DNA of 64,000 nt, from positions 2,493,711 to 2,557,710 of the forward strand of contig MU001495.1 in assembly GCA_010093485.1 (NCBI GenBank), given 5' to 3'. Shown here in pieces: positions 1-27,870 of the stretch (the stretch's first letter is position 1; each line of letters begins with the position of its first letter). Source of the DNA: Karstenula rhodostoma CBS 690.94 (lineage: Eukaryota > Ascomycota > Dothideomycetes > Pleosporales > Didymosphaeriaceae). The notes below the pieces were generated by a model. That model was not told the DNA's origin. It did not search any database and saw nothing but the letters and a program-made list of their open reading frames with translations. The position numbers and the translations under genes were made by a program.

Positions 1-700
1 GGCCGAAGTCCAAGTGAAGCGGCTGTCGCGTTTAGAGACGAGGCCTATGGGACCGGTGTAGCAGGTCGCCCTGGCCAGGTAAGTCTAGAATATGCGCCAT
101 CCAGACGAAGCGAGCTGTTGGGCAACACGTCATCTGATCAGCATTTCGCGGGGACGTGAGATATGCTGGAGTCGCCCGCCCGTGATAAGGGGGAACACGT
201 TAGCCCTTGCGTACAGCGCCTTTGCAAGTACCGTGGCTGACATGGCACCTCGATGGGTAGCGTTGACCGAGACATCTGCATGATTGAACGACCCTGATAC
301 AATCGATACGACGGCCATGTCCTAGCGGGACTGCCTTGCCGTTGCAATGCGATCAGTACTGCTGCCGTTGAGGTTGAGGCGGGGTCAACATGACACTCTG
401 TTCGAACCGAGTTGGGCAGCTCGAGCTATTCCTTTCTCGGTAAGGCACGTGACCCCTCCCTTAAGGTAGCGTCTCAGTATAGATTCCCTATCTACTATAG
501 GGTTGAAACGGTCGCAACAATGACTTTCACGGCGACTAAAGACCATTCGCATTTTGGGGCATTTCTAGAAGTATGGAAGGCAACACTTCATGTGATTGAC
601 GCCGTCAACAGACCTAGGTAGACATCTACGAGAGCTAGCAATGGCTGTTTGGATATTCAGTATATACTTCTGTACGTCTGGTCTGAAACTGTGCGAGGAT
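1..700. other. No gene recognised; left flank of repeat array 1
   Basis: No open frame here has family resemblance or a plausible start context. A TATA-like ATTATATAG near 730 and TATATAC near 660 may be decayed members of the neighbouring array, but the other unit motifs are absent. Confidence 0.4.
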
Positions 701-3700
701 CAATGGATGTCTTGAAACCACAGTTCAAAATTATATAGCGCCTGCGCGGTGGGAGATGGCGACCCAAAATGTGGATATGGGTTGTGAGTTTGTGGTAATG
801 CCCCCCGCTAATAACAACCAAGGATTGGTGATGGTTCGATGAGCTCAGACGCAGGCGGGGTATATAAGCTCGTCTTTGCACGAACGTAATCCCCACACTT
901 TTTCAGCCCCGGGTTGTCTAAAAGGTGACGAGTCCTATACGATGTCTCTATCGTTCACATGTCATGTGTGTCTCGCGCGGGTCTAGACCCTAGCTTCTAT
1001 TTCCGAGAACACGCCTCGGAAACACCGCGCTCGGAATGTGATGATGAATCTTACCACCCATAACTGATGATTCCCTCTACCATCAAGATATAAGTTCAGA
1101 CGGAGGTTTGGTATATAAACCAGCCTTGCAGCAGACAGAATCTTCACATAAATTTGACCTTCGGCTTGACTAAAACTTGCACTGGACCATCAGATGTTCA
1201 AAAAGCCGATTCCCATTTCCCATGTTTTTCTGCGCGGCCGGAGCCTCTCCAACGGCGATTCGAGTCAGGCCCCACTGTGTCTGGCACGAGTATTCAGAGA
1301 TGCTCATCATTTGCACTCAATGGCGAAATAGAAGAGCGTTTTCAAGTCCGGGCGGCGGTGGAATATATAAGTAGACTTGCCAGAAACCTCTCCCCTACAC
1401 ACCCACACGGCCTTTGTGGCAAACTTAAAACGATCTCGCAACCTTTCCATTTTGGAAGCATGGAAATGCATCGTTTAGCCTTTCCGTCGTGGTCGGAGCC
1501 GTGGACACCAGCAAATAACTTGCCTAGGTCCACCGAGTTTTATGTCGAATATGTGATGATAACCATCACCAGCACCTAATTGCGAAACTGAACCATTTTC
1601 TAAGTTCAGATGCTGGCAGGGGATGTAAAGCTTTTTCCGGGGGAAATTATCTGCACACCTCACACAGCCTATGGGTAGACTAAAACCGAGCGTTATCTCT
1701 GCTTATGTTTAAAATGCAGTTGCTGAAACTCCATGCTTGCCTGCCGCGCTCAGAAATCTGTTCTTCATTATGATGGGTACTTCGCGCTCGCAGTGTTCGA
1801 TGTGATGATGCGTAACAACTTTTCTCGACGCCTGATCATCGCTTGAGCTCGAAACCACTACATCAACTACACCAACTCAGGAGATAGTGCGAGTTCAGAT
1901 GACGGCGAGGTATATCACCTCGCTTTCTAGGGGCTTTTTATCTTCACACATTCATTCTCTTTGTCGGGCACTAAAATCGAGCTTCGCCACAGGCATGTCT
2001 AAGAAACGCCACATCCGCGTTCTCATATTTCGCGCTTTGGCGTTCGTGGGAGAGTACCTAGTTGATGATGAGGTGTTCATTGGATGTGATGATGTCCACC
2101 ATCTTTCATGAACGCTGCCTAATTCCTCGCTGGACAAAGACAATGTATCACTGCGCGAAATACAAACCTGCAAGATCAGATGGCGGCGGAGTATATAACC
2201 CCACTGTCCGGGCCATAGTTCTATCTCCCCACATCTAATCTCTGCGGTGGACTAAAATTCTCCGCAACCACTTGACATGTTTAAAAAGTGCAGAAGATAA
2301 CACCTAATGCTTGGTCGCGCTTTTGTGCCGGCTGAAGCGCACTTGGTACACCACACTATAATAGTCCTAGTGTTGAATAAATGTTATGGTGCCCACCATC
2401 ATCCATGAGCATTGCCAGATCCCTCGGAGAATCCAAATATATATGGACATTGAAGCGCGCGTCTAGATCATATCGCGGGGTCAGATGGCTGTGGGGTATA
2501 TAGTCCCGCTTCCTGAGGATACAACCTGCACACTTACCGAGTCTTGAGTGAATCAAAGCGGAGGAAGATTTCACTCATGTCGAAAAGGGATCGGGCGAAC
2601 AGTTTATGCTTTGCGGAGGGTGTTCTCCACTACTGAGCCATTAGAAAAGTATTTTGAGTACTATTGTGCGCGCGAAAGATGATGCTCAGCGCCTGCAATG
2701 AGCAGAGCGAGTTGGCTGGGTACAAAACGTAGAGCTCTGATGGCGGCCGGGTATAAAACCTCGCCGACGAGGGCATTCTTTCCACACGCACAGCCTCTAG
2801 CGAGGACCAAAAAGAATTTGCACGATGATTACATGTTTTAAAAAGACTTTGGAACCGCCACATGCTTTGTGGAGGGGTTGGGCTCGCCCCCCGTGCCGTT
2901 GAGTTGTTACAGGATATGATGATGCACGGCATCCCCGACAATGATGAGTGAGCCTTGGCTGGGCGGTTTATAGGCCCGCAGAGCACTCAAGCACTTGTGA
3001 ATAGCGAAGCGTCCATATAACAAGCAAGTATAAACTCTAGCCGATGGAAATAGTTCTGTCACTCACGATTCTTTCCTCTGTGGGAGACTAAAAATGTACA
3101 GCGAAAGAAGAATGTCTACAACGAAGGGTACAGATACACCATGCTTCGTGGGAGAGCGGCTTCTCTTCGTATGCATACTGTTTCATGTGTGCCCGGTACA
3201 ACGTTGGCAGAATTATCAGCCAACGATGATGGTGTGCGACAGCCCCAAGTGATAGTGAGTATTGTTCGAGTGGGCGTTGTAATATGCGGGATAACCAGCA
3301 AGCCACTGGGAGAAGTAATCTCAGATGGAGCGAGGGTATAAAAACCTCGGCGACGGGACGTTTCTAACACTCTATCTCTACACAACTTCTCTTCTGGGGA
3401 AGACTGAAAGCAATTGGTAGAAAAATTGATGTCTAAAAGCAACACGGCAAAAATGCATGCTTCGTGGATCGGCATGGCTCCTGTACCGTCAACTAAGCAC
3501 TCAGTGTCTCGACTCGTGCTCGTCCTGGATAGATATGGTAATGCTCAACATCTGCGACATTGAGTGGGAGCTGCCTCAACGGCCTCGCGAAAAGACAGAG
3601 TCACTTGGTGAAGGTATAGCAGAGAGTTTACTGGCGGTGGGGTATAAAAGCAACCTCACCAGAGACATATCTTTCCCTCGCACGTCACGCAACGTCTCTT

Positions 3701-5600
3701 CTATATGCGACGAAAAGATGATACGATCTAAGATGATGTGTAAAAGCAAGTTGCAAGAGCTGTTATGCTTCGTGGGCGGCATTGTCTCGCTGCCGTGCGG
3801 CGACATGTGTGCTTGACATATGGAGTTAGTACTGGTATCTCATGCTGCGTGACTGCGATGATGCTCGCCAATACCGACGGAAACTCACTCGTTCTGACCC
3901 AACGAGTGTTCTGTAGATTGGCAAGAGTTCAGATGGCGGGAAGGTATAAAATCTAGGCTGATAGTGACGTTGCTATCACACAGTCATTCTAAGAGACCAA
4001 ACATGGTTGGAAAAACTCATGTTTGAAAAGAAGAAATAGTCGACTCATGCTTTGTGGAGGGGTTTTTCTCGGGACGTCGCTATTCCACGCCCATTCATCT
4101 CCTAAGGAGACTAAAATATGGTTTGGAAAACTCATGTCTGAAAAGCAAGAAGCGGCGAACTATGTTTCGTGGAGGGGTTTTACTCGCTACCATCGTTTTC
4201 CACGTGTACTTTACATGTTTCTTTTTTTCGCTGGCGTTGATGCTGATACTCGTGCTGACGGGTGTGATGATGCGCGGCAACTACAATAGATTGCGTACTG
4301 ACAAAACAGGGCGGAAAGATCGGATGATGGAAATGTATAAAACTAACATTATTAGACATACTTCTATCACACGCATCTCTCCTCTACGGGATACTAAAAA
4401 CTACAAACGCAATGTCTTATGTCTAAAGAAAATGGAAGCTTGGTACATGCTCCGTGGGAAGTGCCCTCGCTCTTATGCCATCGACAAGTAGTCTACACGT
4501 TTTACTACTATTGGACAGCCCATGCTGGCAGAAGTGATGATGCGCAGAGTCTTCAATGGGCTTCACATTCCGACCAAGCAGTCGTAGCGTAAGTTTGAGG
4601 TGTAAAGCCTGACCCTTCAGATGACCTTGAGCTATAAAACCAACCCGCCAGACACGCTTAGCACATACGCGCATCTATCCTTCGCGGGTACTAAAGATAA
4701 CATGCGTCCAGAACATGTTTAAAACTTTGAACCGTCACCTTCATGCTTCGTGGCTCCTGTATAAAACAGGAAACATCATGGAAAATGTTTATCGAGTCTG
4801 GCGACTGAGAAGCCAGCGTATACTATAACCCCAGTGGATACCACATCCCACTTGATGGTGCCGGCCAACTCCCCCGCAGTGTGATAATTTAGAAGGAAAA
4901 GCAGGTTCAGACGGTGAAAAGTATATAACCATCCATACCCAACGGACTCGTTTCTATCGCTCACACCTCACGGGCTTCGGGGAAGACTAAAAGCCGCCGA
5001 TAAACCCAAGTATGTCTATAAACGGACTGCTATCGATATGCATGTCTGAAAACAGAAGACTGGCAATCTCATGCGTGGCGAGTCGTCTCGCTCGTACTGG
5101 TGACGTATCGGACTGTGCTTGACATGGCGCTGTGATGATATCCGGCATCTGCGATGGATGGCGAGGACCTGCCTCACTTGGCGAGCGGGCGCGGATGGTG
5201 GGGGGGTATATAAGCAGACTCTGCGTGCTCGTTTCTCTCCTACACTACTTCTGCCTTCTCGGGGGCTAAAAGAGACAGAAACATGCAAGATGTCTAAAAA
5301 ATGACTGGAGCAGAGGTCATGACTCGTGGAGAGTGGCTCCGCTCCCGTACTAGTAATGTGTCGGATTGTGTGTTGGTAGACGTGATGGTGTGCGGCATCT
5401 TTGATAGATATTGCAGAGTGGGTACTGAACTGGCGTGGTGTTGATACAGGCTTTCACGATGGCGATGAGGAGGAAGGGAGGTTCAGATGGTGGAGATGTA
5501 TATAAGTGAGGTAGTGGACGTGACTTTGTAACTTATGGAACTCCTGGGGGGAGGGGGGGGACTAAAAATGAATTCGATGACCAGAATGTTTCAAACCGGA
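700..5600 (+). repeat. Array 1: about 17 diverged promoter-like repeat units
   Basis: Diverged tandem repeat with TATA-type elements at about 861, 1112, 1364, 1624 (degenerate), 1911, 2192, 2497, 2752, 3029, 3337, 3642, 3944, 4336, 4633, 4922, 5207 and 5499, that is every 250-310 bp apart from one 392-bp step. Each TATA is usually preceded by TTCAGATGGCGG-like sequence and followed by CACAC-rich sequence about 30 bp on. An ACTAAAA-type motif comes 55-65 bp after the TATA, often as CTCTNNGNGGGANACTAAAA. Next come ATGTCTAAAA, then CATGCTTCGTGGAGGGG, then GTGATGATGCRCGGCATC 70-120 bp before the next TATA. No frame is conserved between units, so I see no protein. Motif order and spacing are directly visible; a role as promoters or ncRNA genes is inference. 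Confidence 0.8.
4020..4200 (+). repeat. Partial unit duplication inside array 1
   Basis: The segment with TTGGAAAAACTCATGT, GAAAAG and ATGCTTTGTGGAGGGG at about 4005-4065 recurs at about 4120-4175 as TTTGGAAAACTCATGT, GAAAAG and ATGTTTCGTGGAGGGG. The second copy has its own ACTAAAA but no TATA box. This accounts for the one long TATA-to-TATA step (3944 to 4336). Confidence 0.6.
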
Positions 5601-5832
5601 CCAGCACCCGTTGATGTTTGGTGGAGTGAGGAGCTTTGTCCTGCTTAGCACGTGTCGCTGCGAAGCGAAGGGATCGGTGAGGCGATGATGATGATGCTCA
5701 GCAACAGCCTTGCAAAATCTCGTGTGGTAGTGTTATACAAGTGACCCATTGCACTGCCTGCCATGGCTCTCGTTACTGGCTGTACTTCTATCCTACACAC
5801 CCTGCAATGCCCGCGCGACAAACCCAAGCCCC

Positions 5833-6921
5833 TCAGACCTGGAAAGCTACCCCGTCTCTCTTGACCATGGCCTTGCCGCCGCCGGCAAACCCAGTGCCTT
5901 CGCTCCGTATCTCGACGAGTCCGGGTTCCAGTCCTCTCTCCTTTTCTTTTTTGCTCTTTTTCCCTTCCTTCTCTTTCGATTTCGTCTCTGGCGCATTGGT
6001 CAAGTCTGCATCGCAGACATAGCAGTGCACGGTTTCTGGCTCCGGCCCGTCATCATGCGCGTCCCGGTGATGCCTGTGCTCCGGGCGGAGGAACTTGTCT
6101 ACGCAAGGCTTGCACAACACATGACCGCATGGTATCGCGATCACAGCTTTCGACGCATTGGACAGCGCCTTGCGACAACTCGGACACGTGAACGTGGACT
6201 TCCCCGTCTCTGGCGATTTTTCCATGTTGAAGTTGGCTGGGACGAGTGTTTTGAGCGATAGCGCATGGGGATGCTCCGGATCACCAGACGGACACGTGGG
6301 ATTCTGCTTCGCCTTCTCTTTGCTTCTGTAGTTCTGATCTGGCGTCTCCCCCGGCACCCAGAAGCTTGGGAGATGCCCCTTCGCCGCCTTTTTCTCCTCA
6401 TCGAGCGCCAACTTCGCGCGACTGCGCTCTTCGAGGGCGATGCGCTTCAGCTCTTCCTCGTCAATCTCGAACTTCCTCTTCTTCCCCCTCGCCTTCCCTA
6501 CAGCACTCTCGTCCTCCTTCTCCACGACAATCTTCCCGCCTTCCCTTCCCACGACGCGCAATTCAGCGCCATGCTTAACTCGCAATCCCATTTGCACAGC
6601 CTCAAAATCCGCGACTGCCCGCAGCCGAGCCTCCTCGTCTTCACGAGTTTGCTGGTCCTCCTCTTCCTCCCGTCGTCGCTCCGCTGCCTTTTCCAATCTC
6701 TTAATTTCCTTCCGCTGCGCAAGGAGATTCGTCATTGCGCACTCGCGGCAGAAGAGGTCACCTGACGGGCAGCAGACGGGGTCGACTGCGGGGAGGAGAC
6801 AGAGCTGGCAGCTGCCGAAGGGGAGGAAGGAGTCGCGGGACAGGCGGGCGGCTTGGGAGCCCCATGTTGCTTTCATGTTGTTCCGCTCATGGGAGGTGAA
6901 GATTGTTTTGGGCGGCGGCAT
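5833..6921 (-). CDS. NOSIP-type zinc-finger protein
   Basis: Single-exon gene of 362 aa. The N-terminus has the fungal NOSIP pattern: WGSQAARLSRDSFLPFGSC, then a first zinc-binding module with CQLC at about residues 38-41 and CRECA near 58-62. It continues into a charged coiled coil of Lys, Arg and Glu (about 70-195). A second RING/U-box-like module follows at about 245-310, with CPSC, CGHVLCKPC and CYVC. Family members are nuclear proteins with an atypical U-box, linked to ubiquitin ligation and the spliceosome. I start at the ATG in CATCATGCC at 6921 because the conserved region begins soon after; an in-frame ATG at 6975 would add 18 residues. It is divergent with the tafazzin gene. Confidence 0.85.
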   Translation of the reverse strand: MPPPKTIFTSHERNNMKATWGSQAARLSRDSFLPFGSCQLCLLPAVDPVCCPSGDLFCRECAMTNLLAQRKEIKRLEKAAERRREEEEDQQTREDEEARLRAVADFEAVQMGLRVKHGAELRVVGREGGKIVVEKEDESAVGKARGKKRKFEIDEEELKRIALEERSRAKLALDEEKKAAKGHLPSFWVPGETPDQNYRSKEKAKQNPTCPSGDPEHPHALSLKTLVPANFNMEKSPETGKSTFTCPSCRKALSNASKAVIAIPCGHVLCKPCVDKFLRPEHRHHRDAHDDGPEPETVHCYVCDADLTNAPETKSKEKEGKKSKKEKERGLEPGLVEIRSEGTGFAGGGKAMVKRDGVAFQV

Positions 6922-7274
6922 GATGGCGTGGTAGATGGAGATTGAATTCGAAGTGCGTGTGAAGTAAGGCTGCACGTGTTTGTGTAGCCAAGACCGGGAT
7001 ATGGAAGTAGCGACAGGCTGTTTGGTGGGAGGTGCGACTGATTGCTTCGACTCAAATCGTCAAGTGATGGTGTGAATTGTTCGCTGCCGTCTGGGGTACG
7101 GCGCGTCACGAAAAGATGTCGGGGCCTCGGAAAGAACGCGATCGCCACACGTGGCTCAGGGCGCGAGGACGTCCGACGTTGGCGCTAGTCCAGGCCCAGC
7201 CCAGCCAGTTCCGAAAAAACATTGCCATGTTCCGTTGATGGCGTTTTGCGCATTCTCACCTCAACCCACCTGCG
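6922..7274. promoter_or_regulatory. Shared divergent promoter region, NOSIP-like / tafazzin
   Basis: The 353 bp between two divergently oriented start codons must hold both core promoters. No convincing TATA box is visible, as is common for housekeeping genes. Co-regulation is not shown by sequence. Confidence 0.4.
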
Positions 7275-8552
7275 ATGCGACCCGACCCAGAAGAGCAGCC
7301 CGCTGCTCCGAGCGCGCCATGGAGGGCCGGCTCATCCTTCGTCATGGGCGCCGTGGGCCTGCTCTGCCGCGGATTCCTCATGATGAGCAAGACCGAGACG
7401 CATGGGCTGGAGAAGTTCGTGAAGCTGATGGAAGAGCGCGAGGATGTCGAGGGCAGGGAAAGAGGACTGATTACGGGTATGCGACCCCCCAGAGCCTACG
7501 TAGAACCCAATTGACACGCGTAGTATCGAACCACGTCTCTGTGTACGCATGTTTCGCCGCGAAGTTTGGACGGAATTGAAACTCATACGTCATTTGCATA
7601 GGCTCGACGATCCGATGATATGGGGCATCATGCCGTTGTCTTACATGTTCAGCCCTGACAACCTGCGATGGGGCTTGGGCAGCTACGACCTGTGCTTCAC
7701 AAACAAGTAAGTTTCCCTTCGCTCATGTTCACGGCATGCTGACGACGTAGGGGCCTCTCGACCTTCTTCACCCTCGGCCAAGTCCTTCCTACGCATCGCA
7801 CCGCGCATTCGGACTTTGGCGGCCTCTTCCAGCCCACCATAACGCAAGCGATACGCCTGCTTTGCCGCGGGCCATTCCTCAACGCGAGCGACCACTTCGC
7901 GAAACCTTCCAAGTCGCTGCGCAGCCCGGACGTCTCTGACCCCTTCAGCGGCGGCCACCTTACGTTCTCGACCAACGGCACCGACACGTTCCCTTCGCCG
8001 TCTGCATACCTCACGCGCCGCCATGCTTGGGTTCACGTTTTCCCGGAAGGCATGATACACCAGCACCCAGACAAGACAATGCGCTACTTCAAGTGGGGCG
8101 TGTCGCGACTGATACTGGAGAGTGATCCTATGCCGGACGTTGTGCCGATGTGGATTGACGGCCCGCAGGAGGCGATGAGCGAAGAGCGCACATTCCCGCG
8201 CTTCCTGCCGCGACTGGGCAAGAACATCAGCATCACCTTTGGCGACGCCTTGGACGGCGAGAAGGTGTTTGGAGACTTGCGCGCGCGCTGGAAACAGCTA
8301 CACGCGCAAGAAGCGGCGAGGAGTGGCAAGCTGGAGGTCGGGATCCTCAACGACGCGCTCAAGTACTCGGACGAGGTGGTTGCGCTCCGAGAAGAGTGCA
8401 CCGCAAGAGTGCGCAATGCCGTGCTGGACGTGCGGCGATCGCGCGGCCTTGTTGACGAGGATCCGAAGGCTGGATTCGCAGAGACGTGGCTAAGAGAGGG
8501 ACCGGGGCGGGAGGGCAGGAAAAAGGACGACAGCATCGTAAAGGATACCTGA
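7275..8552 (+). CDS. TAZ1: Tafazzin-like phospholipid transacylase
   Basis: Four exons by my reading: 7275-7476, 7524-7542, 7602-7706 and 7751-8552, giving 375 aa. The tiny 19-nt second exon restores the acyltransferase motif I, VSNHVSVLDDP (HX4D), and all junctions have GT..AG ends and keep frame. Downstream are the glycerolipid-acyltransferase blocks GGLFQPTITQAIRLL and FPEGMIHQ. Tafazzin remodels cardiolipin acyl chains at the mitochondrial inner/outer membrane interface. An N-terminal hydrophobic stretch (FVMGAVGLLCRGFLMM) fits membrane association. The region around residues 165-205, rich in Ser, Asp and Phe, is a fungal-type insertion before the FPEG motif. Confidence 0.9.
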
Positions 8553-9283
8553 GGCAGTCAGGCTGTACAATATGTATTGAGTATTTGCGGCGATTTATTT
8601 CTAGCGACCGAGAGCACTATACCCCTCGAGGACCTCTCGCAGGCAGCGCAGCCTGATGGCGACCCGGGCGGACATTCCGACGCTCCTCTGCATCGTGTCT
8701 TCAACGACGTCGCCGCCGGCGGGTTGCGACGGACGAACAATGAAAGAGACATCCTTGGGCGCAGGCTGTCAGATTAGATCAAGTAATTCACCGTCAGCGA
8801 CGTCTGCCCAACCTCCAGCGCGGGCGCCACTCGTAACAGAACCACGGCACAGCCTGACGGCGGCGGGCTTCGTCATCGAATAGCGACGCGTGCGGGAGGA
8901 CGGGCAGGGCGCGACACCGGTTCAGAGGTGGGCGCGCGCGTCTCGGAGTGCTCTTATCATCACCCAGCCTGCGACGCTCCGCGTGCCGCCGTCGCAGCCG
9001 TCGACCAAAGTTGAGGCGACGGCGAGGGCGACGGGCGGGCGGGCGCGGTGGAGTGAAGCAGCAGCAGCAGCAGGCAGCCGCATTGCGTTGTTCAGCGAAG
9101 GGGCAGCTGGCGGCTTGGCACGACGGCTAGCAAGAAATTTAAGAGAGCGCGCGCCCGCAACGCAGCGGCGCTACTGCGACCCACCCGCTGTTCGCATCCA
9201 CTCAAGTGCTGCCTCGCCAGTCCCGCCAATCAACGCCCCGCACCCCTGCGTCCATATCGCAAAACGCCTTAAGAACCGCGAAC
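8553..9283. other. Intergenic region, GC-rich, no gene recognised
   Basis: Holds the 3' end of the tafazzin transcript and the upstream region of the NC2-alpha gene, with a short CAG-rich run near 9059-9075. Long open frames on both strands are low-complexity Arg/Ala/Pro translations with no family resemblance. An in-frame ATG at 9206 could extend the next gene by 26 residues. Confidence 0.4.
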
Positions 9284-10101: not shown

Positions 10102-10790
10102 GCCCGGGAAATGACATGAGATCAAGACTTACGATGAATACATGTTGCACGAAGGATCATGCGGCTTCCTCTTCGCGGGTAAAGCCAGTCGGCAGGAGGA
10201 CTGAATGCTTGCGCAGGCCCGGCGAGCTGAGAAGACTTCTGCTGACGAAGGCCGGCGCAACGACTCGGCCTCACATCACCCCTCTGCATCCACGTTCCGC
10301 TCCTTGCGCACTACGTGTACGGATCATTCGAGCGGGCCCGGCGTTGAGCAGGTGTGCACTGTACACTAACTTTATGAATTATTTCTAACTGCTTGAAGGT
10401 TCGGTTCAATGCGGCGATACCAATCAATTTGAGTTACTTTTCACACATGATGCTCCTCCGTGATGGTTGATGCCAATTTTTTTTTACTACGCAACGATTC
10501 GGAGCAGGTACTGACATAGACCATTGGCGGTATTCATTCGTATCTTGCGCCGAAATCCGATGCCCCATACCGCGGCGATACTGCTTTTTCGAAAGTCTGA
10601 TATGGATCGATGGGTAAATTGCTAGGTTCCGGGTCTGCGGCGCGTTCAACGTCTACGACGCAATTTATCCGTGATCTAGTAGATCCCCGCATGTCGCGCC
10701 CGTCAGGAACCGTCCTGCGATTGGCTCCTCCCGCATCGAAGACCATTACTTCGTTAACCCTGTCGATACTCCGCTACCTCGCCATGACTT
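10102..10790. other. Intergenic region, no gene recognised
   Basis: No supported coding frame. It contains an isolated ACATGATGCTCC / TGATGGTTGATG pair near 10446-10470 that resembles the GATGATG element of the arrays, and a 10-base T run near 10480. Confidence 0.4.
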
Positions 10791-10799
10791 CTCCCGTAG

Positions 10800-16313: not shown

Positions 16314-16679
16314 TGTGGGTTGGTGAAGGTTGCTTTGCTTTGAAGAGAAGAGTTTGGACGAGGTTTGGGGAGGTAGGGTGTGGGGGGTGAGTCAAGTTTG
16401 GGACGGTGTTTGGGGAGGTGGATGAGAGGTGTGGGGAGGGGGTGAGTCAACGGGCACGTGATTAATGATCTAGATTTTTGGTGTCCACTTATTTGGAGAT
16501 GGGGAAGGGGGTAGGGTTGGTTTGGTATGGGGAGGGGAACTGTGTGGGATGGGTGTGTCTAGGTCTAGACGGGGCAGGGTATGTGGTTTTGTTTGTTCAG
16601 TTGGACTGGAGACTGGGTGCGTGGGGATGTGTCGAGCATTCAGTTGTGGGCTCTTATGCCTGATAGTACTCACGATATT

Positions 16680-18480
16680 CTAGCACGATGGTGGTTCTAA
16701 ACACCATAATCGCCATCATTATCATCATCACTTATCCATAGCTGTGAGAAAGGCTAAACTCCAGAAGCGACGGAGAGAGCGCGCAGGCAGCATGCATTAA
16801 GGATGAGGTTACTTTTCGAAACATTAAGTTTCGCTCATTCCATTTTAGTTAACCCAAACGCTGCTTGTGCGTACGTGTACTAAAACAGCTTCTAGGTTGG
16901 GGCTTTTATACCTCGTCGTCGTCTCAACACGCGCAATCTAATACTCTAGTAGGGAATTTGTGGTGGTGAGCGTCATCACTGCCCCGTGGGCTTGGGTCGT
17001 GATCTATAAGTAGGGATCAAGGGGCGCACGGAGCCCTCCGACATATGTCCTCTTATGATAATGTTTTTTTAGTATACAGCCTGTCTAACATAGCTTTTAA
17101 TCAACCCGAGGGTCGCGATGCGAGTGTGCATCAAGACATTGCCGGCTAGAAGAGGTTTTATACGCTGCCGGCCTCGGGGTGTATGTATGATGATGGTGTT
17201 GTTCGGCTCCGTCACTACAGAAACACGAAATCATGGAGACGATAGCTGGATTGTTTTAGTAGAGCGGGAAGGGCGGCAGGGTCCAGGCCATGCATCCTTT
17301 AGTTTGTACTTTTTAGATATGATCCGATTTGCTTCTTTGTTTTAGTTTATCTAAGGGGTAGTTGCGTGTGTGGGTTAAGACGCTGCTTGCTGGATGAGTT
17401 CTTATACCCTGTTGGCCTTGAATTATAGTAATAATGATGGTGATACTGTTCAGCATCATCGCCACAGACGTTTGCGGATATGGAGACGAGAGCTAAACTA
17501 TTTTGGTATCGCGAGTAAGGCGGCAGGTCTCAGTCCATGGTTTATCTGACTTTCGCTTTGAGAAATGACTTTCTTTTTCCCCTGTTTTTTAGTCAACCCG
17601 GTTCTGGTGATTGGAGTGTGGACCGAAAGCAGTGCTTGCCAGGTAATCTTTATACCCCGCCCACTTCCCATTTCTGCTCACGCGGATATGGTGATGACCT
17701 TCATCAGTCACGACAACGAGACGTACGGAAAGCGAAACCAGCACTTGGCACTCGTGGTACAGACGAGGGCGAAAGGAGCCAGCTCATGAGTTCGGATTTG
17801 GGAACATTTATAGGATGTTGACTCGTTTTAGTGAACCTGGTGGTTGTGACTGTGAGAGTAGTTTGAGAAGACTGCCATCTGGACAGCCACTTGTACACCG
17901 CTGTGACTCTAATCTTTTCTTCACAGGTTTTATATTTGTAATCGTCAGTGTGCAGTGGTTCCCATGGAAATGGGTACAGATATGTTTGTTTTTGGGATCC
18001 AGAAGGGGGCGAGAGGAATCAGTCCATTCTACGAACTGTGGTGAGCTTTGAGACATGCTACTAACTCTGGTATGTTTTAAGTCAACCCTGAGGCTGTGTT
18101 GAGAAGAGTGCAGTAGGAAGCCAAGGTTTTATACACCGTTATCATCTCAACGTGAACTTCTCTATTATCATGTGACAACCATGGTGCTGAGGATAATCAC
18201 TACGCATAAGGCAGAGGTTTTTCAGCATAGGTAAGAAGTCTTCGGATTTTGGTACCCAGAGGAGGGCGACCGGGACCAGTCCATAACCCACTTTCATCAC
18301 GATTTTTAGATATTGGCATAAGCACTCTGGTGTTTTAGTCAACCGGGGGGCTTTTTATGAGCATAGTAACCAACCTTCTAGGTGGTCGAGTTTTATACCC
18401 CTTCATGTTCCAAATTGGCCGTTGGTGCACTTTAAAAAGGATATGGTGCCAAGCATCATCATTGACGGTCCATTTACGTG
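16680..18480 (-). repeat. Array 2: at least 7 promoter-like units, reverse orientation
   Basis: On the minus strand each unit has a TATA (plus-strand TTTATACC) at about 16904, 17157, 17400, 17649, 17891 (TGTACACC), 18127 and 18391, a period of about 236-264 bp. A GGTTGACTAAAA-type motif (plus-strand TTTTAGTCAACC) lies about 58-65 bp downstream of each, at about 16843, 17094, 17340, 17587, 17826, 18075 and 18333. A third module, CCCAGAGGAGGGCGA followed by CCAGTCCAT on the plus strand, recurs near 17280, 17530, 17770, 18010 and 18260. Upstream of each TATA is a palindromic element such as GATGGTGATACTGTTC with CATCATC (17436-17460). The motif order matches array 1, but the intervening sequence and orientation differ. 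Confidence 0.75.
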
Positions 18481-19057
18481 CGTATAGATGCTAAAGCTAT
18501 CTCTGTAGATTTCATAGACGGAGAGCGACACGACTCGCACCATGGAACTGGAGAGATTTCGTCTTGGACATACGGGTCTTCAGGTACACTTTTGTTCGAA
18601 CCAGCGGCTGGTAGCGTGAGAGTGTAGGGAAAGTGGTGTTCAACAAGTGGGATTTATTGTAGGAACCAGGCTACATATCCTGGGCAAGATGCACGACACA
18701 ATCGAGAACATACTTCCGAAGGACTCTATCTTTTGGACGTTTTGAGCTTTTGTGTCATGAAAAGCACGTACTATCTACGCGTGGGCGCTCAATCAAGCTT
18801 GGGCCAGCCGGATCCATACATATATCGAGCCTGGGGGCTTCTCTCCCTACGCTCAGTGACAATACAATCGATCACCCTGAACTTGCTCCTAAGCTCCCTC
18901 TAACAGCTTTGCATCAGTCTTTCTATCTGTTGCTGAAGCTCGCAGAGCGCACGGATATCCCAACGCATAACATGGTTTGAAGACCTAGAATAGCTCTGTT
19001 GCCGCTTTTTAATAAAAAATGAGATTGTGTTATTGTGAAGAGGGCATTTCCTTTAGC
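18481..19057. other. Non-coding stretch between array 2 and the inverted-repeat element
   Basis: Further array-2 motifs are too degraded to place with confidence, and there is no supported gene. Confidence 0.35.
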
Positions 19058-19815
19058 TGTATTGTAGAGATTCACTATGAGGTAGGGTGACTCAATAAAG
19101 TAGGGGGGACAAAAAGGCGCGTTGTGCTTTGCCAATGCACGAACAAAGGGGGACCAAAAAAGCAGCTAAGGCGCGCCCAGCGTCTGTGCGCAATCCTTTA
19201 GCTGTATTATACACCTTCTCGTTATGCGAACACTTCTGGACATCCATTTAGGCTCATGATGGTGCCGAGGATCATCACCACACAAAGCCACGTGATACTG
19301 ATCCTTCAAGACAGAATACTACTCCGGGAAGGCGCAAGGCACGCCCGAAAACATGTCGTTGATTCCATAATCTTTGAGGCCATCGAACAGCCCTATAGAC
19401 GCGTTTATTTGGGGTTCCAAAAGCCAATGTAAGTATGGAAGCTACGATTTCGCTCTTGGATGGATTCATATACTTCATCGTTATTTGATTAAAATGGGTC
19501 TATCTTGGCCGGTGATGGCGCTGAGTATCCGGTGCCATGGAATCCTCCAAGCTCCGCCTTCCCAACAACTCCAATTCCGTCAGACCAAATCATCCACCAT
19601 AGGGCCGCTGCCTAGCACGTGCGCGAAAACCTACATGAGTATCTGGCGCTGTTATCATTGGCGCTCTACAGCTAACATATCTAAAGAGCACAGACGCTGG
19701 GCGAGCCTTAGCCGCTTTTTTTGGTCCCCCTTTGTTCGTGCATTGGCAAAGCACAACGCGCCTTTTTGTCCCCCTTGCTTCATTGATTTACCCGCCCTCA
19801 TAGTGATCGTATACA
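19058..19815. mobile_element. Inverted repeat of about 135 bp flanking about 480 bp; probable transposon relic
   Basis: The arm at about 19058-19195 reappears in inverse orientation at about 19680-19815. The core (GGGGGACAAAAAGGCGCG, then TGCTTTGCCAATGCACG, then GGGGGACC) is nearly identical, with more divergence at the outer ends. The interior carries an array-2-type palindrome (ATGATGGTGCCGAGGATC at 19257-19274) and no intact transposase. Either one element with long terminal inverted repeats or two solo copies inserted in opposite orientation would explain it. No clear target-site duplication is visible. Confidence 0.55.
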
Positions 19816-19915
19816 ATATATTTAAAGATTTTGGTATATGCAACCACGCTCAGAGAATGCCCGAGCGCATTGAAGGGCGAGGTCCTATCTTGTGGAGTTT
19901 CTAACTTGTTCATGT

Positions 19916-20600
19916 GCTATTAAGTCCGCCCCGAGGGTCGCGTCATTGCAGAAATTGTTCCGGGGCTGGCTTTCTATATCGTGCTGTCAGCTGAAAGCAT
20001 GCGCATTTCCATTCTAGTGGATAATGGTGTTAACCATCATCATCGAACAACTCGGGGCCAGCCGCAGATGGTGACCATGTGGCACTGCTTTGCATTGGGA
20101 TGAACATGGAGCCTCCCGCACTTAGCTTTTAGTCGGTAATGGAAGCTGTTTGAATGTGAGAAATAAATTGTCGCTGTACTGTCTACCTCTTATATCATTT
20201 AAACCTCATTTTATCTCACTAGGCTGGATCAAATCGCTGAAGATCCTTGTCATCACTACATGAATTTTTATGTGCAACAAACAAGGCAACACATAGAACA
20301 GTTACAGACTTTACACTCGGTCCGTAAAATGGTATATTATTTCATGGCCTTTTAGACATAGCTCCCCAATCCGGTTGTTCTTAGTCAGACTAAAACCTGC
20401 GCGCGAGCGGGAAGGCAAAGAGTGCGAAATAGAAGCACTTATGTATCCATCCACTAACCTAACGCCCCTAATGTATTTCCTTATTATCTCCATATGATAA
20501 TCAACACCAAAATCATTACCATCATCATAAATATTTGGAAGGCCAAGACCTCAATCATAGCGGAAAGTTTTGTACACTCTAGAGTCGCCTAAAACACCAC
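19916..20600 (-). repeat. Decayed continuation of array 2
   Basis: CCCCGAGGGTCGCGTC at 19930 matches CCCGAGGGTCGCGATG at 17104 in array 2. ATGGTGTTAACCAT (20024-20037), TTTTAGTCGG near 20128 and CATTACCATCATCAT near 20514 are further members of the motif set. TATA elements are less clear. The inverted-repeat element at 19058-19815 therefore appears to interrupt array 2. Confidence 0.5.
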
Positions 20601-21204
20601 TGGAGAACACAGAAGCTTAATGTATACGATTCTAGAGATATGAATTAAAGGTTGCGTAACTGCGGATACAGAGGACTGATTACTGCTGATCCAGTATATC
20701 TAGTACATAGTTACTGACCCCGGGCAATTTCAATTTCAATAACTCCGGCAAATATCTAGGTAATCGCGGCGTTGAACAAGTCTCAGAGTTTGCAGGATCA
20801 CCCAAAACCAGAATTTACTCGAGCCTTGTCGCTGCTCAGGTTAGTGGCGACGACCATCGTCCACTGCGAACCGAGGCTCGCGTCATGTGCGAGTGAGACG
20901 GGAAGACCAAGGTATCCATCACGTGATCGCTAAGGCAGCAGCACATCTCGCTTCATCACCCATGTCTATCCGAGAACACAGCAACTTTATGACTCACATG
21001 CTACTTGGCTCAACCTAAGCTGTCACCGCCCTTACGACTCGGCCCCTGTAGACATGCACGAAGGTGCTCATATCTAGTGAGTCACCCTTGCCTACTTCGA
21101 AATAGTGAGGAGGTGAGCTCCTCCGTATATATAACAATGCCACCGAGTATCTGAAGCACCCTCATCTCATCTCTTACTGACATACTCAAGACGCCGCACT
21201 AGGC
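20601..21204. other. Upstream region of the F-box gene
   Basis: No supported gene. A strong TATATATAA at about 21126 lies about 80 bp before the F-box start codon. Confidence 0.45.
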
Positions 21205-22986
21205 TTGGTTACGTGCACGATGGATGATACCACGGGAACGACTGCGTATCGAACAACGATTCTGGATCTGCCGAAGGAGGTACTGCTTGATATTTTTGGC
21301 TACTTCGTTGAAAAATTCCCCATTCACGACCCCTCCGACTACTATAAACCTCGGGCTTCCGAAGCCAGCGATCGAATCACATTCTTGGGCAACAACCGGC
21401 TAGTCTGTCGCGCGTTCGACAGACTCATCAGTCCCCTGCTATGTCCGGTGGTGAGCGTGTCGCTTTTTCCAGCATCAATTGTTCGTTTGGAGGGCCTCTT
21501 TCGCAACCCGTTAATTGCGCAAGGTGTCCGCGGCATTGCTATAAGTCTTCGCTTTCGACCACGCGCTATTGCAACAGACTTCCGGAGGTTTCATGCTCAT
21601 GCGAACTCAGTCCTTGATGATTGCACACGGGAGTGTGACTGGAATACCGAGTTTCAGAATTATGATCAGGATGACATTTCCGATGATGCAGTTACATATC
21701 GAGCGTATCACGACGCTTGGTCCAAAATTTGTCAAATGCAGGGCGCTTGGGACAACCTTTTCGAAACGATTAGCCCTCAAGAAGAAGCACTAGCGACAGC
21801 AGATGGTTTGGAGAACGACAATAGCACGGACGAAGAAGAAAAAGCAGCACAAAGTCTCTTGAAAAGCTGTTTCGAGAAGTATGCTGCTTCACATGCGGAA
21901 CAGGCTCGCATCGTCTCGGATGGGTCTTTTGTTCGCAGTATCACAATGGCGCTGTCTTTATGTGGCTCGTTGCCATTTGTTTGGTTCAATGAGAATCAGC
22001 TTGGGAAAGACTGGTCGGCCGGAGGCGCAATCACCCTGGCGACTACGAAGGAAGCTCTGGCTCGCACACTGGTACAAGGCCATGAGTGGTTGGCAATCGA
22101 AGACAGGCTTTGCAACGATGACGATGATACAGGACTTTTCTTTCCCGCCAGAATCCTGACTGACCTTCCAATTGCCTGCCATGACGCTGGGATACAGCTA
22201 AAGGGGATTTCAATCGATTGCTTTCCTCTATTGAGAGGTTACAGTTCTCTCCTACCAAGTTCCAATCAAGCCGACTACAGTGTCACGAGAACTCCTTGGG
22301 TTCGATTCGCTGCAGCGTGCAATGGCTTGGAGATCTTCAACTTTGGCCGCCGCGGCATGAGTTGCTCACCCATACGTCCCGAGCGTCAGAACACTTACGA
22401 CTTAGCGATCATCAACGGTTTCATCGGCGCAGCTATCTCAGGGCCATATCTGCAAAGGTTGTATGTGAACATGAATCCTTTCAGAGTAAGAAGTGGACGT
22501 GCAGGCGAAAAGGAAAAAGAGCATCCATATCTGGCCTCGCCCATTGTCGCTGCCATTACATCCACACAGCTACGCAGTATCGTGCTGCACAATGTCGATA
22601 TTTGCGAACAGGAGTTAATGGTGCTCATAAAGTCAGCTTCCCCAGTGCATCTGACAGACTTATACCTTGCTAGTATAACGCTTTCACATGGCCGCTATGC
22701 GGAAGCTATGGGCCTACTCCATGACATAGTATTGCTTAGGAGAAACAACAATTCCTCCAAGCCGAATGTTACCTTCAGTACCTTACAGGGCGCAGAGTTT
22801 GGAGTGCCTTCTATCTTCGACGACGACGGCAATAGTTGGATGTGGGGTTCCAAGGAAGAGCGGGACGCATTTTGGGACAGATTGGAGGAGCACCAACATC
22901 CCGATCTCCTCAAGCAAGTTGAGCAATGGATTAAGGAAGGACAAGGAGACGAAGCGAACCCTTTATTGAAGTTTGAAGTCGCATAA
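21205..22986 (+). CDS. F-box domain protein
   Basis: Single exon of 593 aa. An F-box is visible at about residues 18-75: TTILDLPKEVLLDIFGYF, then NRLVCRAFDRLISPLLCPVV. F-box proteins link substrates to Skp1-Cullin1 ubiquitin ligases. The remainder has the leucine-rich, irregular alpha/beta look of the large Pezizomycotina F-box/LRR families (for example LRSIVLHNVDICEQELM and LTDLYLASITLSHGRY), with an acidic insert near residues 205-225. The substrate is unknown. The start could be the second ATG (residue 6). It sits alone between array 2 and array 3. Confidence 0.75.
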   Translation: MVTCTMDDTTGTTAYRTTILDLPKEVLLDIFGYFVEKFPIHDPSDYYKPRASEASDRITFLGNNRLVCRAFDRLISPLLCPVVSVSLFPASIVRLEGLFRNPLIAQGVRGIAISLRFRPRAIATDFRRFHAHANSVLDDCTRECDWNTEFQNYDQDDISDDAVTYRAYHDAWSKICQMQGAWDNLFETISPQEEALATADGLENDNSTDEEEKAAQSLLKSCFEKYAASHAEQARIVSDGSFVRSITMALSLCGSLPFVWFNENQLGKDWSAGGAITLATTKEALARTLVQGHEWLAIEDRLCNDDDDTGLFFPARILTDLPIACHDAGIQLKGISIDCFPLLRGYSSLLPSSNQADYSVTRTPWVRFAAACNGLEIFNFGRRGMSCSPIRPERQNTYDLAIINGFIGAAISGPYLQRLYVNMNPFRVRSGRAGEKEKEHPYLASPIVAAITSTQLRSIVLHNVDICEQELMVLIKSASPVHLTDLYLASITLSHGRYAEAMGLLHDIVLLRRNNNSSKPNVTFSTLQGAEFGVPSIFDDDGNSWMWGSKEERDAFWDRLEEHQHPDLLKQVEQWIKEGQGDEANPLLKFEVA

Positions 22987-23850
22987 GACTGAGTGCGTAG
23001 TTATTCCAATTGTAATTAACTTTTCATTTTGGGCCAGAAGTTACTGATATGGTGTGGCTTTTCACCTCGACCTCATTTTGCGCTGACCAGATAAGGCAAA
23101 GGCTGGATTCGTACAGTGGGGCTCTGGATGGCCCGTCCAGGGGCTGCCCGCACTTTCACACTTCGAGCTTTCCTCCAACCCCGAACAATTCTACATGTAC
23201 GCGAAGTCTTGGTTCAATGGCCTGACGCGCAGTCCTCGTTGATGAAAGCCAATGGCGGAGATAGTACCGTGTTCTTCAACGCAGGATACCACACCTCCAG
23301 GTATATTGTAAAGATTCGTAACAAGACGCTTCCCGTGCGAGTACCTAACTGAATACAATTCTTGTCCAATCGACCAACTCAGATGTACGTGCAGGCATGC
23401 AGGCGTTCAGAGTGAATCAAGAATCATTCTATGGATTCACGTATGTTGCATCACGTGCAGATTCTGGTTTCGCCAATGACAAGATAGGCATCCGTCGCAT
23501 CCTCATGAGATATTGGTGAAGTATGAAAAGTGTCTCCAAAATCGCAACATTTGCGATTACCCCAGGCCTTTGGACCACTCTTGTCTAAACTATTCCTTCC
23601 AAATACTTCCAACATTCGCGATACTGCCACCCGCCATTACTCTTGCAACTTTAGCATGTGTGGCTCGGGCACAGTCATACTACGATGGTCAGGGACCTGA
23701 GATTGGTGACGACACGACCAATTGGCCAATGATTGCACGGATTTATGGCCTGTCAACGCGACCGCTTTCCAATGCACTACGTTCAGAGTGCTCTGAAATA
23801 CGTGGATTTGAACAACAACGAGACCCTTGACATTAGGATAAGTCCCAAAA
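22987..23850 (+). other. Probable gene relics, no intact gene
   Basis: A short frame near 23090-23240 reads like the C-terminus of a globular protein (for example HFELSSNPEQFYMYAKSWF) but has no start. A frame shift away lies FFNAGYHTSRYIVKIRNKT (about 23270-23330). A second frame at 23513-23830 includes a signal-peptide-like segment (TLATLACVARAQ, then SYYDGQGPE). I cannot join these into one gene; they look like decayed or heavily spliced fragments. Confidence 0.25.
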
Positions 23851-23989
23851 GTTGTTTTTCTATTTCATCACCATCATAACGATTCAAAGGTGGTCAATCT
23901 GTAAGCAGGGATGAGCATGCAAAGATGCGCCGAAGGACATTTGCCTGAAAACCTATTCATTCACACTTCTTCCATGCCCCTGTTTTGAA

Positions 23990-26900
23990 AGGAAAAGCCA
24001 CTTACCACGAATCCAAGGGGGTCGGCTACATGTCTTTCCCTCCGCTTGCCTTTGCGAAAGGTGTGTAGACATCGACACTCAGAATCGGTTGAGGCAAAGT
24101 TCCACACTTTGGGGATAATCATTGAGCCGGTGATGATGTTTCTCACTACCATGGTATGGAGATATGATAACAGAATCATACAAAGTGCGGCTTTTAACTC
24201 GGTGACTTGCACACCACACCGCCCCGAGGCGCAACTAAAAGACCATGTGGTATCTTTTCCTGATGGATGCTCTAAGATAGAAGATTTCCATGATCATGTC
24301 TTCTCTTCTACTCGTCTATGATCCTTCACGGAAAGAATCTAGGAAGAGCCCATGATACCCTGTCCCTTTCGGCTTTAGCCAAGATGCATTGATATCTGGC
24401 GAAGACGTGCCTCACCATTGTTCTTCGCGGATCCCGAGTCGATAGCTTGCAAGAAGCGGCTCGCTTTTCAACGAGTTACACAACACACTGCTCTGCGGCG
24501 CGACTAAAAGTCCAAACGGCAGCTCTTTGTGGGGGAGGGTCTATGGAAAGAATGTCTGTGTCTGGACTCTATCCTGCTGTTCCTGGTGTACTGCGGTTCA
24601 AAACAATCACTACGGCACCACATGGTGCGAAACTACTATTATAAAATAGAAACATGTTCCAAGTCATGAGCTGCTGTTTTGAGACCCAGATGTCGCGGAT
24701 CGCTATGGGTAGCTCGGAGCTGGGGAGACTGGCCTCTACTGTGGGAACCACCATCATTAGATTACAGAGGTGAGATTTTGTCACCATACGTCGCCACAGA
24801 TTCTAAATTGACGTATTTAAGAAACTTCCGTACCCTTATTTTCGTGCACACGACACTCTGTTCCACTGGGACGCTGAAAAGCTGGACGGCCCCCGTTCAT
24901 GGAACTAAAAACAGTACAATTGGGGAGGTATGGTTTGGCTTGCTTCTCGCTGCGTATAACTTCTAGACAGACCAGTTTTGGTTTGTGTTATGGCACTGTT
25001 CTGGCTAGAAAGCGCAGATAAAGCCCAGCCTGGGTCATCCCCGGTTTTTCGGCTGAGGGCATTTAAGCGGCATCACACTCATTTTGGCACATACACCACT
25101 CCGCTCCACTGGAACACCAGAACCGTACCTCTCTTAAGCTATGGAGACTAAAATTTCGAATGAAAAGACATGTCCGGCTGTTGCTGCGCTAAAATCAACA
25201 AAACCACATCGAAAGTGGTGACTTCTTCTTCCTCCATACCTCTCGCGAGAAAGCGGACGCAACACATTGTATACGTTTCCTCATTCGCAGTCGAGCACAT
25301 AAAAACATTCTTCCCCTCTCTCGATTCCTCATTTAAACCTCTCTGTTCTGAAGGAGACTGGAAAACCAATCCTCAACCATCCATGAAGACTAAAAGAAGT
25401 ATGGGAAGAGATATAATGTCCGGTCGGCGGCTCGCTGCGCAGCGATCGATATGTCTAAAACTGACTCTTCTCTACTTCTATGGCGTACAGGTCCGGGGAG
25501 AACGCGGAGATGATGTAGAGTGTGTGGTCTTTCTGTTTGGAGTTGAGGGCATATAAAAAGCCTTTTCTGACTGAGTGCCTTACACGCACACAACACCTCG
25601 CAAAGGTGCGATTAAAAATTGAATAAAACACCCGCATAGGGATCGAAAAGCCGTCTTCAAAATACCAATGGTTGGGTCCGCTCCGGTGCTGCGAGTTGAT
25701 CAACTTCAAAAACAGCCTCAACCTCTGCATGGCAGGGATCCCGAGACCAAGCCGAACACAACCGCAGTCAGTATGCGTCTGTCCGTTGGGTATTGGGGTA
25801 TATAAGCCGCTCTTCTTCTTCGATCTCAGCGACACACCACCGCATCTTGGTACGCAAAGAAACGGAGTGCAATTTGTTCGTGGGGACGAAAAGCCAAGTG
25901 GGCAAAAGACCATTGTTGAGTTCCCTTTTGGTACCTCTTCATGACCACCTAAAAATGGTTATCTTTGATTTCTATGGGGTGGGAATCCTGGACCAAAACG
26001 GACACAATCCGCGTACATTCTCGGGGTTGAGGGTGTAGAAGCCGCTTCTTTCTTGAGTTGTTTCACACACGGCAACGTCTCCGGTGGAGACTAAAAACCC
26101 CCAACTCTGGATTCATGAGCACTGGCGTTTCAAAGTTCCGCATTTAATATGCTATGGCTTGGTTCCGTCTCGGTCGTGTTTCACCGACTCGAAGTCATGC
26201 AGGTGGCGACCCATGTGGTGCGGACCCTGAAAAGAAAAAGATAAAAAAGCTGCAAGCATATATCACGTGTCCCTTCGACTTTGAACCCGAAGATATAAAG
26301 TAGCTTCTCCTCAGCCAGTGTGTTGCCCACACACGCCAACGTGAACTATTTAGGTGGGCACTAAAAGAAACCAGTCGCAGTTGCATGGGGACTAAAATAC
26401 AGATTGACTATTCCCATGTCCGGGCCCCTTGGCGTCTCGGAATTGATCGACTAAAAAAACGCCATCTTCACGACTACGGGCTCGGAGTCCTGGAATCATG
26501 GTGTTAGTCCTCTCCAGGCAAGGTATCGGTACTCCCAGGTCTGACGTATATAAGCTGTTCCTCCTCCACCAATCTCTTGCACACACCTATTCCACCGCGT
26601 CCCCAAGAGACTAAAAAAACGATAAAAACGACCCATGGGGACTAAAGAATTAACCCCGACGCACTCATGTTCTGAGTGCCTCTCGCTGAGTCCGTCTAAA
26701 AGTCCAACTGCACCAGTTAATGTGCGCTGGCTCAGGTGAAAAGAATGCACCGTACGCCTTTGCCTAATCTGGTATTACATATGTATAACAAGCAGCTCCT
26801 GAGCCCGTTATTGTACACACGCCAGAAAGCAGGTCGAACCTTAAACACCATACATGGGGACGAAAACCAATATTCTCTCACCCAATGTCTGCGCACTGTC

Positions 26901-27870
26901 GTCCCTTGGCCCGACTAAAATTACAGTTGGTACCCCATCGTGGGGCGAGACCGGGGCAAAGCGGCCGCAACCACAATATGCATCTTCCCAAGGCCAGTTT
27001 TGCATAGGGTTGAAGCTGAGGATATATAGATGAGAACTTTCTCTTCCCCAGTCTCACACACGCCATAATGTTTTCGCGGGATACTAAAAACCCCTGCGTC
27101 CCGCTTCCATGTGACTAAAAAGCATAATATCAAGACCTAATGTCTGGTTCCGTCTTCGTGCCTCGTCGACGAAAAGGCGCCTAAATCCCCCTCACGGGGC
27201 GAGATCCGTGGCACAAATGAGCAAATTGCGATTGTATGTGTCTTCCCGGGTCGGTCTGGGACCGTGGGGATATAAGAAGAGCTTCGCACCTGGTGTCTAT
27301 CTTCCACACACGCCATAGTGTTTCAGCGGGACACCAAAAGGACAGCCACAAAGGAGTAATGTGGACGAAAAGCCGTCGTGTCAAGATGTCATTGTTGGGG
27401 CGCGTTCTGGTGCTTCGGTTGTTCGACAAAAAAACGTGACCAGGCTCTTCATGGGGTTGACAAGTCTGCGGGAAGCGGACGCGATACAATGTATGTGGTT
27501 CGCCCGGGTCCGAGGCTGAGGGTGTATGAGAAGGGCTTCGCACTCGGTGTCTGTCTCCTACACACGCGGGGGAGAGTCCAGGGTTTACACTAAAACAACG
27601 TATGCGCTCAAATCATGGCGACTAAAACGACAGCGCTAAGTTGCTATGGTTGGACTGCGCCTCGGCGGCTCGGATTGATTGCCTAAGGACCCCGCCGAAG
27701 CTGTTATGGGGTGACGAGTCTTGGGAGGAGCGGGCGCAGAAGTGTATAAAGAGGGCTTCGCACCCAGCGTCGTTTTGCACATGCAGCGTCCGTGTTCAAT
27801 GGGGACTAAAAACGAAGACGCGAAAGAAAAAAAATCATGCTTGCGGTCCTGCTCGGTGCGAAGGAATTGA
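23990..27870 (+). repeat. Array 3: about 13 promoter-like units, about 245-bp period
   Basis: TATA-type elements lie at about 24814, 25061, 25297, 25551, 25799, 26034, 26293, 26548, 26783, 27022, 27271, 27524 and 27744, nearly all 225-258 bp apart. Many are preceded by GGNNGAGG and followed by AAGNNGCTTC, then CACACACGCC about 28 bp on, then GGGGACTAAAA 50-65 bp on. A second CATGGGGACTAAAA often follows (for example 26385, 26635, 27112). Next comes a module like AATGTCTGGTTCCGTC that ends in ATTGATCGACTAAAA. Further degraded copies extend left to about 24000. No coding frame is shared by the units. Motif order and spacing parallel arrays 1 and 2, but the upstream GATGATG palindrome is rare here (near 24126 and 24737 only). 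Confidence 0.8.

Follow-up and report, generated by a model that had tools for sequence, protein, structure and literature searches.

Arrays of two-box modules with variable intervals of near-fixed length in the genome of Karstenula rhodostoma: a possible family of guide-like noncoding transcription units

Three arrays of promoter-like units in a 64,000-nucleotide stretch of the Karstenula rhodostoma CBS 690.94 genome (the window: contig 4, MU001495.1, bases 2,493,711-2,557,710, of the 44.3 Mb assembly GCA_010093485.1 in 29 contigs) share a downstream anatomy with further arrays of the same genome. The promoters are followed by modules that consist of a [C/T]TAAAA box, 18-20 variable bases and an ATG. 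Promoter-like regions recur in the arrays, but serve one to about 21 such modules each. The conserved quantity is the length of the variable interval and not that of the repeat. We tentatively interpret the arrays as a dispersed family of noncoding transcription units of RNA polymerase II type with guide-like repeat-spacer modules, and we give this interpretation somewhat less than an even chance. The anatomy can be read directly from the sequence, and from it we infer transcription, processing and guiding.

The evidence starts with the spacing of the two boxes. Twenty loci of 8-10 kb were fetched around genome matches of the promoter syntax TATAWA-N22..48-CACAC-N12..38-ACTAAAA, for which the reversed pattern served as control. 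One locus (L010) was excluded, since it held just three promoter-core matches, two of them weak; 19 array regions outside the window, with borders set by eye from such matches, were combined with the three of the window. In these 22 regions, ATG starts 18, 19 and 20 nt after [C/T]TAAAA 80, 100 and 20 times among 273 boxes, while every other offset up to 49 has 0-13 ATGs (13 at 17 nt). One first-order shuffle of the regions yielded 61 boxes, with 2, 1 and 4 ATGs at the three offsets and counts of 0-5 over the offsets. The box itself occurs 273 times in sense versus 19 times in antisense. Within the window's three arrays these numbers are 50 and 4, and 35 of the 50 boxes have an ATG exactly 18, 19 or 20 nt on (19, 14 and 2 times), with 0-4 at each other offset up to 44. 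The promoter syntax by which the loci were chosen stops at the first box and is silent on the downstream sequence; the box-to-ATG spacing was first spotted by eye in locus L012, which is itself among the counted regions.

A matrix scan, looser than the strict pattern, covered 263 kb and returned 549 modules in 24 arrays, with intervals of 19 nt (278), 18 nt (193), 20 nt (44), 17 nt (30) and 16 nt (4). In the window it found 80 sense modules inside the arrays and 24 elsewhere or antisense, compared with 20 in a shuffled window; at a stricter threshold these values were 69, 14 and 6. Genome-wide, the strict pattern GGACTAAAAN{17,19}ATGKG gave 51 matches versus one when reversed, and the pattern ACTAAAAN{18,20}CATGG gave 40 versus 8. 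Locus L032 contains a single promoter-like region, behind which about 21 modules follow one another every 46 nt or so; the standard threshold detects 16 of them and lower thresholds 21-22, with 0-3 in antisense. Locus L031 has one promoter-like region as well, with 13-18 modules (18 at low threshold) and none in antisense.

Successive modules are linked by joints, counted from one ATG through the next box, of which 279 were found, spread over 9-48 nt (the script retained lengths of 8-48 nt only). They are alike within several arrays and G/T-rich (G 0.39, T 0.28, A 0.12). This composition, together with the C that stands directly before ATG in roughly half of the strict modules, would fit arrays of polyadenylation or termination signals, in which the box acts as a poly(A) hexamer variant and is followed by CA 18-20 nt on and then by G/U-rich sequence; ACUAAA is a rare variant of this hexamer. 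However, the module spacing is far tighter than that of poly(A) sites, the whole ATG is kept in 484 of the 549 matrix modules, albeit in a scan that rewards ATG, and some 21 signals behind one promoter would be hard to explain, so that we regard this explanation as very unlikely. The ATG, which is part of the layout of every module, might also point to tandem short peptides or to a repetitive precursor with variable cores, and variable cores between conserved flanks resemble fungal precursors of ribosomally synthesized and post-translationally modified peptides (RiPPs). However, ATG-to-ATG distances below 80 nt fall 93, 103 and 93 times into residues 0, 1 and 2 modulo 3, the median distance to a stop is 21 codons in the ATG frame versus 19 and 21 codons in the two others, intervals of 18 and 19 nt are both common, and no reading frame is kept across intervals or modules. 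A coding function is hardly credible under these circumstances.

The variable intervals, in the following called spacers, are almost all unique. All 212 of the strict set are distinct, as are 548 of the 549 in the matrix set; the single exact pair lies in locus L018, and the few near-duplicates occur chiefly in L031. Pairs with at least 14 matches number 11 among the 549, compared with 3 in one shuffle. In the strict modules, information per interval position amounts to 0.01-0.11 bits, save for the position immediately upstream of ATG (0.26 bits, C 50%), and intervals show no hairpin excess over shuffles (z +0.6). Within L031 (C25:208700-210300), several spacers are near-copies of one another (TGTTCCAAGAGGTTGGACC and kin), and copying of spacers within an array is thus possible.

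How the parts of the arrays change after duplication was followed in 21 segments from self-BLAST, each 50 bp or longer and with 10 or more spacer columns aligned. Identity was 91% in boxes (315/346), 86% in other array sequence (249/290), 81% in joints (384/474), 72% between promoter and box (149/206) and 57% in spacers (313/551), leaving aside columns assigned to different classes in the two copies (308/382 identical); unrelated intervals aligned with like scoring are 51% identical. The p-value for spacers versus joints (Fisher, 5e-17) is overstated, because some of the segments overlap. Whole-unit global alignments (spacers 0.53-0.56, other sequence 0.59-0.72, boxes 0.90-0.94) were set aside, as cheap gaps inflate identity, and the BLAST segments and the unrelated-pair baseline were used instead. 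By this measure, the intervals diverge much more than their surroundings, with traces of common origin remaining. Accelerated interval change would be the corresponding interpretation, tempered by the overlapping segments, by their choice on similarity and by a possible array-specific constraint on the joints. The original prediction had noted that the motifs outlast their linkers, which the boxes of the duplicated segments bear out, and that the linkers are heavily diverged; much of the supposed linker is in fact a variable interval of fixed length. The two-box module, the most revealing feature of the arrays, had gone unnoticed.

An ordinary tandem noncoding satellite that carries promoter-like motifs and decays without function after duplication would be expected to leave many degenerate copies, and just 293 of the 549 matrix boxes end exactly in TAAAA; the position of the arrays among ordinary genes would agree with it as well. 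However, decay should erase the 18-20 nt spacing and hit all parts alike, whereas boxes and spacers differ strongly in identity within the same segments and the strict module pattern is found 51 times as against once in reverse. Such a satellite is therefore an unlikely explanation.

In the sequence, a promoter-like region (TATA box and CACAC stretch) precedes one to about 21 modules, each comprising a conserved box, (G)GACUAAAA or similar, the 18-20 nt variable interval and AUG (often AUGGG or AUGUG). If the guide-like interpretation is correct, the array region would be transcribed. The transcript might then be cut or bound at both boxes, and each interval might be presented as a guide that pairs with target RNA (or DNA). 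Fixed length and free sequence would suit a guide of nearly two helical turns, while new guides could be made by local duplication and subsequent rapid interval change. Fixed-length, nearly unique spacers between conserved boxes, with many promoters, represent a signature of RNA-guided systems, which to our knowledge are known in such arrayed form only from prokaryotes. One might speculate about a nuclear eukaryotic repeat-spacer system in which thirty or more loci hold promoter-driven modules, perhaps numbering a thousand or more. Each module would give a unique 18-20 nt guide RNA set by the two boxes, an active or selected process would diversify the spacers, and the system would serve RNA-guided regulation or defence in a fungus; in this full form, we consider the proposal rather doubtful. 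Given expression and processing of the arrays, a large and apparently undescribed guide-RNA repertoire would exist in fungi. Even if the intervals were mere rulers, the arrays would represent a new kind of noncoding RNA with strict two-box geometry.

Several results weigh against a guide function. First, candidate targets were sought for five of the 549 spacers in the whole genome of the fungus itself, with two mismatches allowed (three in one search) and reversed spacers as controls. Each of the five recovered itself, and one also its known duplicate, but for none of them did the search return an exact site beyond its home array, and inexact sites numbered 1, 5, 1, 0 and 0 versus 1, 3, 1, 0 and 1 for the reversed spacers (sums 7 and 6). 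The spacer at window positions 4993-5011 has a 17-nt contiguous antisense match at C1:1557202-1557220, inside an MFS transporter frame (Pfam, E 6e-35); yet by our estimate a few per cent of trials with five spacers would produce a match of this length by chance. Shorter matches to 230 kb of non-array DNA are slightly in excess on one strand (13 nt, 19 versus 10.2 shuffled; 14 nt, 7 versus 2.7), which is partly built in, because this set includes 3 kb fetched for the 17-nt match, whereas the other strand shows no clear excess (12 versus 9.9 and 3 versus 2.0). Second, homologous spacers retain similarity (mean 0.385 ungapped in 23 same-length pairs versus 0.268 in unrelated ones; 19 further pairs differ in length) and are thus not simply replaced, and one duplicated pair has an identical spacer but differing flanks. 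Third, a polarity of the arrays was not upheld. Box quality declines as the distance from TATA grows (501 modules, rho -0.16, p = 2e-4), with perfect boxes at 58% for 40-80 bp, 37% for 80-400 bp and 27% for 400 bp or more. However, the correlation is lost once the first box is left out (rho -0.05, p = 0.3, 409 modules) and the choice of loci favoured first boxes, so that there is no good evidence of polarity. Fourth, a Pfam scan of 20 neighbouring frames, mostly one per locus, revealed no recurrent gene family, and 8 of these frames gave no match; the flanking frames are ordinary and include a PAN2-like protein (a reading from that frame's two domains), squalene epoxidase, MATE, P450 and kinase.

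The main rival to guides is a ruler or platform RNA, in which a single RNA-binding machine contacts both boxes and requires them to be 18-20 nt apart, while the interval is a free linker of irrelevant sequence. That none of the five spacers searched genome-wide has a convincing target speaks for this explanation, and so do the near lack of sequence signal in the spacers and the tolerated interval lengths of 17-20 nt. However, an unconstrained linker would be expected to diverge no differently from other free sequence, while the spacers are far less conserved than joints and promoter-to-box sequence of the same duplicated segments; this argument is valid only if the joints are free of array-specific constraint, which might still exist. 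We consider a ruler RNA quite conceivable, if on balance improbable.

The arrays are widespread in the genome. The promoter syntax matched 60 times and its reversed control never; once overlaps were merged, 55 places on 13 contigs remained, a few of them AT-rich and possibly due to chance (e.g., one on C18). Merging the listed places of this search and of both module-pattern searches at 10 kb resulted in 56 clusters, 32 of which, on 11 contigs, hold at least two places, and the family appears to span thirty or more loci. Scaling up from the 51 strict matches less one control, 18 of which fall into the 263 kb with 549 matrix modules, suggests roughly 1,500 modules in the genome. This estimate is rough, because promoters guided the choice of the sampled loci and some matrix modules are false positives (20 in the shuffled 64 kb window, both strands). 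An Rfam search of window positions 1-28,500 gave nothing that reached the gathering score, with two C/D matches far below it (E 0.98 and 5.1), and no match at E<=1 was obtained in the arrays of L031, L032, L012 and L018. Relatives of the arrays in viral contigs were not found (0 matches), while prokaryote genomes yielded 89 matches, which we judge to be chance; the best 80 of the 89 show one match each. No description of such arrays was found in the literature searched, the coverage of which excludes most subscription papers and all bioRxiv preprints.

Known kinds of loci with a similar layout would be arrays of clustered regularly interspaced short palindromic repeats (CRISPR), type 1 PIWI-interacting RNA (piRNA) loci and dictyostelid Class I RNAs. 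CRISPR arrays of bacteria and archaea likewise combine a leader or promoter with many modules, conserved flanks alike within an array and unique spacers of near-fixed length. The fungus does have unique spacers of nearly constant length flanked by conserved elements, but not near-identical repeats of constant length, given that the 279 joints vary in length. In addition, the fungal arrays lie in a nuclear genome, have spacers of 18-20 nt, lack a consistent joint hairpin, often possess many promoters per locus and have no recurrent neighbour gene family that we found. No cas genes were detected among the 20 neighbouring frames (Pfam, about one frame per locus; PADLOC was not run), the sole nuclease domain being that of the PAN2-like frame beside L012. 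Type 1 piRNAs are 21-nt RNAs with a 5' U that are bound by PIWI, and PIWI-clade proteins are not known from fungi. The type 1 loci of Caenorhabditis elegans (21U-RNA loci) are reported to be clustered small polymerase II units, each with an upstream motif and a unique short RNA (PMC3597512, PMC7917550). To this extent they resemble the many small polymerase-II-type units with unique short sequences described here. In contrast, the fungal arrays can have several modules per promoter and a variable part flanked by a box at either end, and their upstream motifs are unlike the nematode motif. Box C/D small nucleolar RNAs also carry a variable guide beside short conserved boxes (RUGAUGA and CUGA) and occur in clusters; the fungal boxes are instead CUAAAA and AUG, with no Rfam family match in the window part and the four arrays searched. 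Class I RNAs of Dictyostelium occur singly, as short RNAs that have a conserved terminal stem and a short sequence motif. They have been described as small noncoding RNAs that form a lineage-specific family, share conserved motifs and possess an upstream promoter element (PMC7919456), which resembles the fungal layout. However, the fungal modules are serial, and a conserved stem was not found in the joints (z -1.0 without the A-run, -0.5 without boxes, -2.9 whole, inconsistent between arrays; a stem closing the whole transcript falls outside this test). A conserved joint hairpin was thus rejected as weak and inconsistent.

In the window, array 1 (700-5800, plus strand), the inverted array 2 (16650-18700, minus strand) and array 3 (23900-27950, plus strand) were recovered at about the places, and in the relative orientations, of the original prediction. 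The unit scan combined a TATA matrix, trained solely on units outside the window, with a box 46-80 bp downstream and delivered 16, 6 and 11 sense-strand units versus 1, 0 and 0 in antisense. About 37 units had been proposed, a number that is plausible but not proved: 20 of 30 neighbour distances are 244-308 bp, while six of 474-999 bp equal about two to four unit lengths, and degenerate units were therefore probably missed. Units are mostly about 250 bp apart in array 2 and about 250 bp or multiples thereof in array 3. On the remaining 35.5 kb, this same unit scan, a loose one, gave 13 and 9 matches on the two strands; thus a lone weak unit proves little, and the case rests on strand bias and spacing. 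The units of an array have the same orientation and order, i.e., TATA box, C/T-rich CACAC stretch and ACTAAAA about 52-66 bp on, the latter range being the TATA-to-box distance of the stronger window units. Over 104 units, G occupies position -1 of TATA in 73%, the C/T-rich stretch lies at about +31 to +49, and CACCACC/TGATGATG words are enriched, centred about 50-75 bp upstream. The shared promoter syntax with kept spacing thus held up in the window and genome-wide, and the features argue for a family of small, tandemly arranged units of polymerase II type that have no reading frame in common. The alternative of a reservoir of promoters is not favoured: the most recurrent part is the module downstream of the promoter, and since about 21 copies follow one promoter in L032, the product seems to be a transcript and not a promoter.

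The matrix scan placed 31 modules in array 1, with short ATGTYTAAAA joints, 15 in array 2 and 34 in array 3, where several modules can follow one promoter and joints such as ATGGGGACTAAAA occur. In one unit of array 3, the TATA box (TATAAA, 26294-26299, plus strand) is followed by CACACACG, and the first box lies 66 bp on; two modules of ACTAAAA, 18 variable nt and ATG occupy 26360-26387 and 26391-26418 of the same strand. Array 1 provides examples, likewise on the plus strand, of a TATA box (4922-4927) and of a module with a 19-nt interval (4986-5014; ACTAAAA, the spacer at 4993-5011, ATG). It also contains a duplicated segment pair (3989-4071 and 4102-4186, plus strand), the spacers of which are still related.

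Some further features were observed beside the arrays. The Noc3 protein of the fungus is 87% identical to its counterpart in Didymosphaeria variabile, 86% to that of a Kalmusia, 85% to that of Bimuria novae-zelandiae and 95% to one further protein, which places the fungus in the Pleosporales close to Didymosphaeriaceae. A 32-bp stretch (TATATATTGTAGAGATTCACTATGAGGTAGGG) is identical between L018 (2211-2242) and the array region of L014 (minus strand), and 28 of its bases recur at window positions 19060-19087; it probably represents the end of a dispersed element that was inserted into arrays. An insertion of about 0.7 kb (about 19096-19775), seen by eye, lies between arrays 2 and 3. Its ends are inverted (GGGGGGACAAAAAGGCGCGTTGTGCTTTGCC..., the reverse complement of which stands near 19715-19775), and similar AT-rich sequences in the assembly are perhaps copies mutated by repeat-induced point mutation (RIP). 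Outside the arrays, a 589-codon frame (37730-39499) contains coding tandem repeats of Val-Thr-Thr-Glu-Ser type (39058-39476) and possibly encodes a cell-surface protein, and one frame at 59216-61372 unites AAA, HAD hydrolase and uracil phosphoribosyltransferase domains. Locus L033 (C13:945200-951300, 6.1 kb) shows a 5.8S rRNA match of 133 bits, with no gathering-score match for the small and large subunit rRNAs (SSU/LSU), and holds a strict module match at C13:947484-947515.

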